The notes below the pieces were generated by a model. It did no database searches and had not been told where the DNA came from. It saw only the letters and a program-made list of their open reading frames with translations. Below are positions 31,024 to 39,764 of a stretch of DNA of 64,000 bases, one piece after another (the stretch's first letter is position 1; each line of letters begins with the position of its first letter). Location of the stretch: assembly GCA_020847985.1 (NCBI GenBank), contig JADLBC010000023.1:1-64000 (forward strand). The letters run 5' to 3'. The DNA comes from Dehalococcoidia bacterium (GTDB taxonomy: Bacteria; Chloroflexota; Dehalococcoidia; Tepidiformales; Tepidiformaceae). A program made the translations under genes and the position numbers.

Positions 31024-31983
31024 TTACTTCTTCTTCTGCGTGAACACGTCCTCCAGCGACCAGAGCTGCGCACCCTCGATCGCCTTCGCATCGCCCTTCT
31101 GCCGCGGGAGAATGCGCCACTGCCCGATCTCGTCCTTCATCGCGTCGATGATCGCGACCTTCGCCGCGATATCCACCGGCAGCGCCAGCGTCAGCGAGAT
31201 CGCCTTCTCATACGTCGCGAGGTCCTTCTCCTTGTCCGGGTCCACGCTCGTCCCCGAACCGGCCGTCGCGGTCGTGCTCGTGCCCAGCGTCGTCGTCGTC
31301 GCGCCCGCCGTCGCCGTCGAACTCGCCGCCGCCTTCGCCTTCTGCGCGTCCGTGTTCACCACGACCTTCACCAGCGTCTGCGAAACCGCCAGCACCTCGA
31401 CGTCGCTCGCCAGGATGCCCGCGATCACGTCCGGCTTCTCCGCCCCCGTGAGCGGGTCGATCTTGCTCAGCGTCGTCAGGCCCAGCACATCCACCCGGTC
31501 GCCCGGCTGCGGCAGGCCGCCGGCGATCCACGCCTCGTGCGGCACCTGCAGCGCCAGCGCCCGCATCCCCTCCGGGATCTTGTAGGCGAGCCCCGCCTGG
31601 CCTTCGTACGTCGTTACCTGCGCCGAAAGCACCTGCTCGCCCGTCACGGCGGGCGCCGTCGTCACCTTGCCGACGAGCTCCTCGGAGCGCGTCGCCTCGA
31701 ACCGGCCCGGCAGCAGCGCGGCCGCCGGCACCGTCTTCGCTTCCAGCATCGAATCCGTGATCTTCTCGCCCGCGCCGACATCGCGCGTGAACACCAGGAC
31801 CGATTCCGCCCCGTTCCCGGCGTTGAGCGCCTGGTCGAGCGTGCTGTCCTTGGCGCCCCGGCTGTTCAGGAACGCGAACATGAGCGCCGCGCTCAAAATG
31901 CCGAACACCGCGGCGAGCATCAGGACGCCGCGATTCCGGCTCGAACCGGCCGCGGCTGTGGAAGCGATAGAAGTACGTGGCAT
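31024..31983 (-). CDS. cpaB: Flp pilus assembly protein CpaB (SAF domain)
   Basis: 'VLVFTRDVGAGEKITDSMLEAKTVPAAALLPG', 'VPHEAWIAGGLPQPGDRVDVLGL'. Confidence 0.85.
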   Translation of the reverse strand: MPRTSIASTAAAGSSRNRGVLMLAAVFGILSAALMFAFLNSRGAKDSTLDQALNAGNGAESVLVFTRDVGAGEKITDSMLEAKTVPAAALLPGRFEATRSEELVGKVTTAPAVTGEQVLSAQVTTYEGQAGLAYKIPEGMRALALQVPHEAWIAGGLPQPGDRVDVLGLTTLSKIDPLTGAEKPDVIAGILASDVEVLAVSQTLVKVVVNTDAQKAKAAASSTATAGATTTTLGTSTTATAGSGTSVDPDKEKDLATYEKAISLTLALPVDIAAKVAIIDAMKDEIGQWRILPRQKGDAKAIEGAQLWSLEDVFTQKKK

Positions 31984-32070
31984 CGCAGGATCTCCTCCCC
32001 TAGCTGTATCGACAGCCACACTCCACCGGCACAGGGCCGCAACCCCCCCTTGACCTTCCCGATCCCTTGG

Positions 32071-32105
32071 CCAACGAAACGGCCGCCCCTTGCGAGGCGG
32101 CCGTT
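32071..32105 (-). terminator. Intrinsic terminator between tadG-like gene and cpaB
   Basis: 10-bp stem AACGGCCGCC/GGCGGCCGTT; minus-strand tail TTTCGTTGG. Confidence 0.75.
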
Positions 32106-32131
32106 GGCAGCGATCCGGGCCGGTGGGCCGG

Positions 32132-33715
32132 CTACTGCGTCAGCTGAATGTGCGTCTCCGCCGCGATGTTCGCGAACGCGTCATCGAGTTCGGCCGTCGT
32201 CGGCGATTTGAAGTACTTCCCGCCCGTCAGTACCGCAACCGCCTCCAGGTTGGCATCGTCCACCGCCGTCCCCAGGCCGATCGTGTAGAGCGTCACCCCT
32301 GCCGCCTTCAGCCGGTTGGCTTCCGAAGTCAGGTGCGAATACGCGACCGATGTTCCCGGGCTCTGTGGCGAACTGCACGAGCCGTCGTAGTTCGACTGGC
32401 TGTACGAGGAGTTCTGGCAGACCGTGTTCGTCATACCGTCAGTCAGCAGGACGACGATCTTCTTCGAATTCATCCGCGAACCCGGACCCGTCGCGATCCG
32501 CCGTCCCAGCGCCGCCGCATAGGCGATGTTCGTGCCGCCCTGGGGTACCAGGATGGCGTCCATCTGCGTGCGAACCGTCGAGAACGTGCTGATCAGGTTG
32601 TAGTTGATCGTCCCCGAGGAGGAGAACGACGCCAGCCCGATCTTGTCGTAGGACTCGTTGAAGAAATTCGTGAAGTACTTCGCGTTGCTGATCATCGAGT
32701 CGAAGGGCTCGTGCGGGCCGTTCGTCGTCGTCGTCGCCTGGTAGGGCGCCGCCTTGTCACAGTACGGCTGGTCCGGGTTCGGAGCCGTGTCGTTCCCATG
32801 CAACGACCAGATGTACGCCCGCGCCGCATCCGCCGCGTTCGCGCTCCCGTGGTGATAGGCCTTCAGGGTCGGCGTGCTGTTGGCGTTGTTCCACTGCGCC
32901 CGCGTCACCGTGAGCTGGTTGGCCGGCACGTTCACCGCCGTGATTTTGAAGAGCTCGTCGTCGATCTGGATCATCCCCGCCCGTGGGCTGCCGCCGCCCG
33001 TCGGCGTGCGCTGCCAATATGGCGTGGTGCTGTTCCAGCCGTCACCGAAGTTCGCACGGTTCGTCGCCGCGCTCGTGCTGTTGAACACGCGCACGTCGTT
33101 CAGCGTGATGGTGATGCTGTTCCCCGAGACCGCCGGGATATCCGCCGCCAGGCGTGGGAAGCTGAATCCCCCCGCCGGCACCGTCAGCCGCCCCGGGCTC
33201 ATCAAGTAGATGGAGTTCGCGTTCTCCGTCTCTTCGTAGCTCGCCATGCACATCGACCCCGAGATGTCGAGGACGATCGCGATATCCAGCACCTGCGAAG
33301 CCGCCGTGCCCGTCGCGGATACGTGCCAGCTGTTGATGCCGAAGACCCGTGCGAAGAACGTCGGGATGTCTGCCTGGCCGGTGATGTTCACGGCCTTATT
33401 CCCCGCGGGGAAGTTCGTCGTGAAGCTCACATTCTGGCCCTGGCTATTGATGAACGAAGCGTTCTTCGTCCAATACGTATTCGCCGCCGCCGAGGCCGCG
33501 CTGGTCCCGTGCGGCATGTCCTGGGCCGCCGCGAGCGCCGCCGCGTCCACCGCCGCCTGCATCTGCGTCCGCGCCCAGAGCAGCCGGCCGACATCGACGC
33601 TCAGCGCCACCAGCCCGATCAGCCCGATGAGGCCGATCGCAAAAAGCGGCAGAGTCTGCCCGCGCTCATCGCGCACGCGTCCCCTGCCCATCAGCTTGTT
33701 CAGAATCGTTTGCAT
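32132..33715 (-). CDS. TadG-like pilus protein with VWA domain
   Basis: 'RDERGQTLPLFAIGLIGLIGLVALSVDVGRLLWARTQMQAAVDAAALAAA'; VWA MIDAS 'DISGSM'; 'LLTDGMTN'. Confidence 0.85.
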   Translation of the reverse strand: MQTILNKLMGRGRVRDERGQTLPLFAIGLIGLIGLVALSVDVGRLLWARTQMQAAVDAAALAAAQDMPHGTSAASAAANTYWTKNASFINSQGQNVSFTTNFPAGNKAVNITGQADIPTFFARVFGINSWHVSATGTAASQVLDIAIVLDISGSMCMASYEETENANSIYLMSPGRLTVPAGGFSFPRLAADIPAVSGNSITITLNDVRVFNSTSAATNRANFGDGWNSTTPYWQRTPTGGGSPRAGMIQIDDELFKITAVNVPANQLTVTRAQWNNANSTPTLKAYHHGSANAADAARAYIWSLHGNDTAPNPDQPYCDKAAPYQATTTTNGPHEPFDSMISNAKYFTNFFNESYDKIGLASFSSSGTINYNLISTFSTVRTQMDAILVPQGGTNIAYAAALGRRIATGPGSRMNSKKIVVLLTDGMTNTVCQNSSYSQSNYDGSCSSPQSPGTSVAYSHLTSEANRLKAAGVTLYTIGLGTAVDDANLEAVAVLTGGKYFKSPTTAELDDAFANIAAETHIQLTQ

Positions 33716-33788
33716 GGCGTGGTCCCTTTCCGGGTGGGTGGAGGCACGTCGCACCCTTGTGGACACCTGGTTCCTGGTCGCGCCCTCG

Positions 33789-34277
33789 TCATTCGAGGCG
33801 CATGTACGAAGTGGATTGAATCGTCGGCGCCGAGATCGAACTCCCGCCGACGAGCTGCATGATGTTTCCGATGGGCGTCACGAAGTTGAACGCGAACGCC
33901 ACCTTCACCGACGTCTCGGACCCGCGCGTGCCCTGCACGTTCGTCTTGGTGACCGTCACCTTCGACGCGTCGATCGCGCAGTTCGTGAACGCCGGGTAGC
34001 TGCTGCAGAAGCTCCCGTAGAGCTTCGCGTCGATGGTCGCGCTGTCCGATTGCACCGCCGCCGCCCGCGCACCTTCGCGTGCCGCGTTCGTGACGACGAT
34101 CCAGGTGTAGTACCCGCGTCCGAAGTCCACCATGCCGAACAGCAGGAGCAGGAACACGGGCAGGATGAGCGAGAACTCGACCAGCGATTGGCCCTTCTCG
34201 CCACCCCGGAAGCCCCGGCGCCGCCACCCACGCGCGGCCTGCTGTCCATTGGCGCCAGCGTTCCGCGGTTCGGTCAT
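33789..34277 (-). CDS. TadE-like pseudopilin
   Basis: 'GEKGQSLVEFSLILPVFLLLLFGMVDFGRGYYTWIVVTNAAREGARAAAV'. Confidence 0.9.
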   Translation of the reverse strand: MTEPRNAGANGQQAARGWRRRGFRGGEKGQSLVEFSLILPVFLLLLFGMVDFGRGYYTWIVVTNAAREGARAAAVQSDSATIDAKLYGSFCSSYPAFTNCAIDASKVTVTKTNVQGTRGSETSVKVAFAFNFVTPIGNIMQLVGGSSISAPTIQSTSYMRLE

Positions 34278-34395
34278 GTCGCTTCCCTCGCCTGGGCGCG
34301 TGGCCCGGATGTGGTTCGGGGGCGGGACGGGAGAGCCCCATCCCACCCCCGGTGCCTTTGCGTCCGCCCCCTCGCGGGGGCACCGCGCTCCGCCT

Positions 34396-36470: not shown

Positions 36471-36599
36471 ATGAATCAGCAATGCGACCGGTGCGGACAG
36501 CAGATCCAGGGCGACGCCGTCCACTACCGGGACCGGAACTTCTGCTCCCAGGACTGCCTCAGCTCCTTCAAGCGCGACGAAGCCGGTGCGTCCCGCTGA
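36471..36599 (+). CDS. 42-aa Cys4 zinc-finger mini-protein (absent from ORF track)
   Basis: ATG after GGAGG SD: MNQQCDRCGQQIQGDAVHYRDRNFCSQDCLSSFKRDEAGASR; Cx2C-x16-Cx3C. Confidence 0.75.
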   Translation: MNQQCDRCGQQIQGDAVHYRDRNFCSQDCLSSFKRDEAGASR

Positions 36600-36610
36600 C
36601 GCACCGGCTT
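36580..36610 (+). terminator. 12-bp stem hairpin overlapping the stop codon of the 42-aa gene
   Basis: AAGCCGGTGCGT / ACGCACCGGCTT. Confidence 0.55.
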
Positions 36611-36623
36611 CCCGTGTGACCGG

Positions 36624-36676: not shown

Positions 36677-36901
36677 CTAGAACCCCGCCGGGGTAGCTTC
36701 CTCGGTCGACTTCTTGTGACGGAGCAGCGCCTCGAGCGTGAACCCGAGGTCCGCCTTCTCGCACAGTGAGCTGCAGTAGGTCATCTTCAACGACGAACTC
36801 GGGGACTTGCGCCAGTCGTAGCGCAGCCCGCAGCGAGCGCACACTTTGATGTTGTCCAGGCTCATCCCCGTCGCGCCGGGGCCAATGATGGGCGTATCCA
36901 C
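36677..36901 (-). CDS. Cys4 zinc-finger mini-protein, paralog A
   Basis: GTG start after GGGAGG; '...IKVCARCGLRYDWRKSPSSSLKMTYCSSLCEKADLGFTLEALLRHKKSTEEATPAGF'. Confidence 0.75.
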   Translation of the reverse strand: MDTPIIGPGATGMSLDNIKVCARCGLRYDWRKSPSSSLKMTYCSSLCEKADLGFTLEALLRHKKSTEEATPAGF

Positions 36902-37014
36902 GTTCCCTCCCCACGTCCTGAGTGACGTCCACTTACAGAACGTAGTTCCAGCGTAGAAGGTTCCGTCCACTGCCGCCACCACGGTAACAGCAGCTTAAAG
37001 AAACCCTCTTCCTG

Positions 37015-37203
37015 CTAGGCCGCCACCGTTCGCTCGGACCGCAGGATCGTCTCGATCGTGAAGCCCAGGTCCGCCTTTTCGCACAGCGAGCCGCAGTACG
37101 TCATCTTCAGCGACGAGCTCGGAGACCGCCGCCAGTCGTAGCGCAGCCCGCAGTGCACGCACGTCACGATGTTCTTCGGGTCGAATTCAGTGATGGTTCC
37201 CAT
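37015..37203 (-). CDS. Cys4 zinc-finger mini-protein, paralog B
   Basis: 'MGTITEFDPKNIVTCVHCGLRYDWRRSPSSSLKMTYCGSLCEKADLGFTIETILRSERTVAA'. Confidence 0.8.
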   Translation of the reverse strand: MGTITEFDPKNIVTCVHCGLRYDWRRSPSSSLKMTYCGSLCEKADLGFTIETILRSERTVAA

Positions 37204-37317
37204 GGCGAGTAGTCCTTCCCCCCGGCCGTTCCCGGCACTGGGATAGCGTGGCATTCACCGGAAGCAGGGCGCACCGCCATTAGGAGCAGAAAACACCCGC
37301 CTTTCGGCCGAAACTCC

Positions 37318-37509
37318 TTACGCCGCCAGCAGTGAGCGCCACGCCGGGCGCACCCGCTTGTAGTCGTACAGGAGCGTCTCGATGGTGAACCCGAGGTCCG
37401 CCTTCTCACAGAGCGACCCGCAGTAGGTCATCTTCAGCGACGAACTCGGCGATCGCCGCCAGTCGTACCGCAGGCCGCAGCGTCCACAGATCCGGATCGG
37501 GTTCTCCAT
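37318..37509 (-). CDS. Cys4 zinc-finger mini-protein, paralog C
   Basis: SD GGAGGAAA; 'MENPIRICGRCGLRYDWRRSPSSSLKMTYCGSLCEKADLGFTIETLLYDYKRVRPAWRSLLAA'. Confidence 0.8.
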   Translation of the reverse strand: MENPIRICGRCGLRYDWRRSPSSSLKMTYCGSLCEKADLGFTIETLLYDYKRVRPAWRSLLAA

Positions 37510-37712
37510 CGGTTTCCTCCGCGAACGGCCCCCCCGCGAACGGGGATCCGTCATGGACCGATCATCGGCACGCGCCCCGGCTACCGGCACTACGGGGTTT
37601 CGCCGATCCATTGCAGAACCGCACCGGGGTAACCCTCATGCGAGCCGCCTGCAACCCCTCGACTTCCCCCGTGCCCTCCCGCTGCGATACCGGCTCCCGC
37701 GGCCGGCCCCGG

Positions 37713-39236: not shown

Positions 39237-39764
39237 GTGCATGCCATGCTCACCCCGCCCTCACCGGACCAGGCCGTGTCCCCCCTCGAAGCCGCGATGG
39301 CCGAGTTCTTCAAAGCCAGCGCCCTCATGGAGCCGCTGCGCCTCCGCATCTGGGATACCGAGGGCCTCACGGTTACCCAGCTGCGCCTCCTCATGCTCGT
39401 CTCCGATGCCCCCGGCATCTCCAACGCCGAGCTTGCCGACCGCCTCTACATCACCCGCCCTTCGGTCTCAGCCCTGCTCGAACGCCTCGAGCGTGGGGGC
39501 TTCCTCCGCCGCGACATCTCCCCCACCGACCGCCGCGGCATCTGCATCAAGCTCGAAGACCGCGGCCTCCGCGTCTGCAGCCAGGTCTCGAACGAAGTCC
39601 GCGACTACACCGCCGGCCTCATGAAGGACCTCAGCGAGGGCGACCTCGCCGAACTCCAACGCGCCCTCGCCAAGATGGTCGAAGCTGGCGAACGCCGCCG
39701 CCTGCTCGACCTCCAGTCCGAAGACGGCCGTGTGCACGAATTCGCTCACGCCTCCGCGAGGTAG
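39237..39764 (+). CDS. MarR-family transcriptional regulator
   Basis: 'LTVTQLRLLMLVSDAPGISNAELADRLYITRPSVSALLERLERGGFLRRDISPTDRRGICIKLED'. Confidence 0.9.
   Translation: MHAMLTPPSPDQAVSPLEAAMAEFFKASALMEPLRLRIWDTEGLTVTQLRLLMLVSDAPGISNAELADRLYITRPSVSALLERLERGGFLRRDISPTDRRGICIKLEDRGLRVCSQVSNEVRDYTAGLMKDLSEGDLAELQRALAKMVEAGERRRLLDLQSEDGRVHEFAHASAR

Follow-up and report, generated by a model that had tools for sequence, protein, structure and literature searches.

In the window analysed here, which is the whole 64,000-nucleotide stretch of DNA, three tandem genes for small four-cysteine proteins form an array whose core is under strong purifying selection. Profile and genome comparisons indicate that these proteins belong to a new family, probably with a fold already known, the treble clef. 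The family was previously unnamed and is present in every searched genome of the Tepidiformaceae, and since this lineage includes cultivated members (Tepidiforma), it is open to experimental testing.

Results

The first-pass annotation had placed three minus-strand genes here, and they are borne out as open reading frames of 74, 62 and 63 codons (stop codon excluded), which we call alpha, beta and gamma (Table 1) and which are transcribed in the order gamma-beta-alpha. At the DNA level, a 141-nt repeat occurs three times in the array, with 75 to 80% identity to the reference copy and spacings of 320 and 327 nt. The near-invariant core described earlier is confirmed: 34 protein columns are invariant among the three copies, and in pairwise comparisons of these copies over the 38-codon core, dN is 0.02 to 0.08 against a dS of 0.56 to 0.95. 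Since dN is far below dS, selection acts on the protein. The cysteines are spaced Cx2C-x18-Cx3C in alpha, beta and gamma alike, and the block YDWR(R/K)S...LKMTYC...CE..DLGFT is common to the copies. The four cysteines and the core are invariant in 57 relatives, and the loss of cysteines in close relatives, named at first reading as a finding that would speak against the family, did not occur.

Outside the core, the tails were said to differ completely, which holds between the three copies but not within each type, as every tail is conserved in its own orthologues. The alpha orthologues keep the N-terminus M-x-T/A-P-I-G-P-G, with IGPG...GMNLNNI conserved, and this supports the GTG start of alpha.

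Table 1. Position of the array, its associated elements and neighbouring features (coordinates in the window unless another contig is given)
Feature	Position	Strand	Description
Alpha	36677-36901	-	74 aa, GTG start; protein VDTPIIGPGATG...CARCGLRYDWRKSPSSSLKMTYCSSLCEKADLGFTLEALL...
Beta	37015-37203	-	62 aa; C-terminus ...RTVAA
Gamma	37318-37509	-	63 aa; C-terminus ...VRPAWRSLLAA
Alpha-specific upstream motif	36947-36956	-	CTACGCTGGA; -10-like, 46 nt before the alpha start codon
Gamma-specific upstream element	37561-37591	-	AGTG-N18-GCCGATGAT; promoter or operator candidate
Gamma C-terminal LLAA codons	37321-37332	-	SsrA-tag-like end
MarR-family-like regulator gene	39237-39764	+	Divergent, upstream of the array; family by eye
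42-aa ORF	36471-36599	+	Four cysteines (MNQQCDRCGQQIQGD...FCSQDC...); convergent to the array
Inverted repeat	36579-36611		Perfect, 14 nt, GAAGCCGGTGCGTC, 5-nt loop; between alpha and the convergent ORF
Gene run resembling Flp/Tad pilus components	31024-34346	-	RGQTLPLFAIGLIG..., GQSLVEFSL...; by eye
Delta (L036, contig G000:C17)	7072-7353	-	Divergent fourth paralogue

The arrangement with the MarR-like gene is repeated in about ten relatives and is part of a conserved neighbourhood. Downstream of alpha and convergent to it, 25 loci (L040-L074) carry a gene that by eye encodes a rhodanese-like sulfurtransferase, often followed by genes resembling S9 and M24 peptidases (also by eye). The 42-aa cysteine ORF gave VATC and archaeal-TRASH matches below the cut-off and was rejected as a part of the system, having no match in 37 relatives. 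The inverted repeat beside it is possibly a terminator-like hairpin.

The comparison with related genomes indicates that alpha, beta and gamma are anciently diverged paralogues. A tree of 69 proteins, in which the shortness of the sequences leaves many forks unresolved, needs 3 label changes for the three types (minimum, 2; shuffled mean, 30), and its grouping is by type across genera and not by genome. The dS between types within a genome (0.57 to 3.2, with the window's own copies at the low end, 0.57 to 0.90) is comparable to that between orthologues (0.79 to 2.4). Tandem orthologues occur in many related genomes, and different genera share the order gamma-beta-alpha and a spacing near 320 nt; the set is incomplete in some genomes, several of which have alpha and delta only.

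Each of two upstream motifs is largely confined to one type of gene. With at most one mismatch, CTACGCTGGA is found upstream of 28 of 33 alpha genes, 1 of 16 beta genes and 0 of 19 gamma genes (shuffled expectation for alpha, 0.4), and AGTG-N18-GCCGA upstream of 16 of 19 gamma, 1 of 33 alpha and 1 of 16 beta genes (shuffled expectation for gamma, 0.9). Their position and the -10-like sequence of the alpha motif suggest separate promoters for alpha and gamma. A sigma-70 consensus scan across the array found no promoter, and the motifs are for this reason promoter-like by conservation and position only. The gamma element was rejected as a regulon marker, since its 13 matches in five genomes looked real only upstream of gamma.

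The C-termini are also specific to type. Of 21 gamma orthologues, 18 end in [LVIAM]AA, typically as WRxLLAA, and a terminal AA is found in 10 of 15 beta and 0 of 35 alpha orthologues. Among 351 other ORFs of the loci, picked by a rough coding-bias rule, 5 end in AA and none in LAA, a comparison limited by the non-independence of the orthologues. The tmRNA tags of the hosts end in RQLALAA in all four genomes examined. We infer from these ends that gamma, and perhaps beta, is built as a short-lived protein, but the LLAA end could instead serve a helix or a partner contact.

The survey of copy number in related genomes that had been proposed found family members in 38 of 38 Tepidiformaceae genomes searched, with at least one and usually two to five in each, and in none of 355 genomes from the rest of the class. 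A scan of 84,980 species, run with patterns typical of alpha, beta and gamma that may miss distant members elsewhere, returned loci mostly titled Tepidiforma or unclassified Chloroflexota/Dehalococcoidia metagenome-assembled genomes, which places the genome of the window in the Tepidiformaceae. A sample of the phylum outside the Tepidiformaceae gave weak, chance-like matches only; the sub-threshold Chloroflexota matches to a broad profile (E of 0.003 to 0.008) were dismissed as chance matches, since three of four are short or partial, and the ORF listing of the one examined (L155) held no convincing homologous gene. A plasmid search found no homologue. Delta lies on a separate contig in most genomes, this one included, and has the motif STSALRLTYCSFLCELGDLGFS and the pattern CxRCxLxYxPSKSTSALRLTYCSFLCELGDLGFS; some genomes carry additional odd copies besides (L111, L119 and L120).

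Seven homologous genes were found in IMG/VR on six contigs (34.6, 52, 112, 165 and 172 kb and a 4.7-kb fragment). The 165-kb contig has two diverged members (L172 and L175) about 35 kb apart, one of them immediately preceding a gene with a match to a minor tail protein in PHROGs (E = 8e-7). The reading of these contigs as phages rests on their IMG/VR classification, the tail-protein match and dense runs of small genes. The gene on the 4.7-kb fragment resembles the delta gene of a related genome (G009) and may be chromosomal rather than viral. When the viral tail protein was searched for in host genomes as a link between virus and host, none was found, and tblastn matches to a Porphyromonas phage (E = 0.006) were rejected because their strand is opposite to that of the annotated integrase gene. 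The viral copies would point to a host target worth controlling.

No family member scored above threshold in Pfam, NCBIfam, PHROGs, PADLOC or PDB, and a PDB profile search gave nothing significant, in agreement with the earlier proposal of an undescribed small-protein family. Several members have matches to the DUF2256, YacG and VATC models with scores short of the curated cut-offs. In profile comparison the core lies closest to the treble-clef families DUF2256 and YacG, which supports the TRASH/DUF2256-like treble clef suggested by the first-pass annotation. The best match was DUF2256 (PF10013), with a profile-profile probability of 89 to 92% over 31 to 33 columns and a score above that of 149 of 150 decoys keeping the cysteine columns, the single better decoy having an anomalous score of 137. 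Against PF10013, the window proteins reach at best 16.5 bits (cut-off, 25), and the best E value among 18 members is 0.005. YacG (PF03884) gave a profile probability of 23 to 59%, varying with the direction and the YacG set; in hhalign the gamma-proteobacterial YacG match exceeded 150 of 150 cysteine-keeping decoys, with an alignment running from the first C-x2-C over the second cysteine pair through DLG, and scores stayed below the YacG cut-off (best member, E = 0.005; P0001, 13.6 bits against 25.5). No DUF2256 protein above the cut-off was found in 61 related genomes searched and no canonical YacG above the cut-off in any Tepidiformaceae genome. AlphaFold2 models from 3 and 57 sequences had a mean pLDDT of 58 to 59, and the PDB fold search made with these low-confidence models (best E value, 2.5) was set aside for this reason.

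The lineage restriction, delta, the viral homologues, the upstream motifs and the SsrA-like ends had escaped the first reading because other genomes are needed to see them.

Discussion

We give about even chances to the array encoding zinc-stabilised treble-clef regulators that dock on protein, with a common core, separate transcriptional control and tail-specific roles. The Cys4 core and its conserved block would dock, much as YacG does, on a single conserved partner in the cell, alpha and gamma would be transcribed separately via their different upstream motifs, and stability or secondary contacts would depend on the tails. Gamma and, with less regularity, beta would be short-lived substrates of the ClpXP type, because their ends resemble the host SsrA tag, and alpha would be stable. 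The earlier suggestion of a shared core function with tail-specific roles is favoured by tails and upstream motifs that are conserved by type, and the copies appear to be regulators under separate control and not redundant duplicates. We infer zinc binding, docking on protein, proteolysis and the identity of any partner; for the latter, DNA gyrase is a rather improbable candidate, and RNA polymerase or the ribosome is also possible. The contrast between a shared core and tails that look stable or degron-like would make a clean test case for regulated turnover.

Several observations stand against the favoured reading. The Trp that follows DLG in YacG and the second Trp of DUF2256 are absent, with neither cut-off reached, the structural models give no meaningful fold match at their mean pLDDT of 58 to 59, and the neighbourhood offers no functional partner gene that runs consistently in the same direction as the array. 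The basic-aromatic core would fit nucleic-acid binding equally well. A fuller version of the docking proposal, with family-specific regulators that have one docking core, a stable alpha, self-degrading gamma and beta and separate promoters, and that act on a central host machine such as gyrase or RNA polymerase and were captured by phages to interfere with that machine, seems unlikely to us.

Nucleic-acid binding is a serious rival. The core would then be a nucleic-acid-binding or ribosome-associated zinc finger for DNA, rRNA or mRNA; its specificity would come from the tails, and the viral copies would redirect host transcription or translation. We regard this as possible but somewhat doubtful. 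Such a role would suit the aromatic-basic stretch Y-D-W-R-(R/K)-S, which is invariant, and the lysine of SLKMTYC, and treble clefs this small include ribosomal proteins (L24, grouped with TRASH [PMC4999995]), but YacG, the closest characterised profile relative, works by protein contact. It is mainly by analogy to YacG that protein docking is favoured over nucleic acid.

A role in zinc storage or TRASH-like metal sensing, with the copies providing dosage, would agree with the four invariant cysteines and their TRASH-type spacing, but it is very unlikely given how much is conserved outside the cysteines (WR.S, KMT and LGFT), the neighbour clusters without a recognised transporter or metal gene, and the differing upstream motifs and tails, which argue against dosage. 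Least credible, and already largely contradicted, are recent tandem duplicates without separate roles that are homogenised via gene conversion, a process raised by the first-pass annotation: the near-identical protein cores of the window copies and their dS toward the low end of the range would fit, but orthologues cluster by type across genera, within-genome dS is on a par with orthologue dS, tails and upstream motifs are conserved per type, and ongoing conversion finds no support.

Among known systems, the treble clefs of the TRASH, FCS and VATC groups share the cysteine spacing with the family and give sub-threshold VATC and MYND matches, but the family has no above-threshold match to them, and they are mostly domains of larger proteins. 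DUF2256 proteins are small and stand alone like the family, both have C-x2-C-G-x-x-(F/Y)-x-W-R-(K/R) ... Y-C-S-x2-C, and the core feature of DUF2256, Cx2C...W-R-K...YCSxxC, is found in the family. In contrast, 15 Chloroflexota DUF2256 proteins have an invariant P-x-K before the first Cys that is absent here, as well as a second Trp and a Val before YCS, neither of which the family has, and in the family the last Cys is followed by an additional 20 to 30 residues that include DLGFT-(I/L)-E-x-L-L.

The 65-aa zinc-finger protein YacG uses both its finger and its tail to bind GyrB (PMC10886550), and it has been united with the TRASH treble clefs in one family (PMC4999995). The likeness lies in the size of about 65 aa, in a zinc-finger core followed by a tail and in the C-x3-C-x3-D-L-G arrangement common to both. 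However, YacG continues as DLG-x-W where the family has DLG-F-T, the family has a longer loop and no RPFCS block, and its neighbours differ from those of E. coli yacG (coaE/zapD). We file the family as neither DUF2256 nor YacG because the defining features of both are found only in part. The family would add a new relative, confined to one lineage, to the gyrase-binding finger YacG and to the common but uncharacterised DUF2256.
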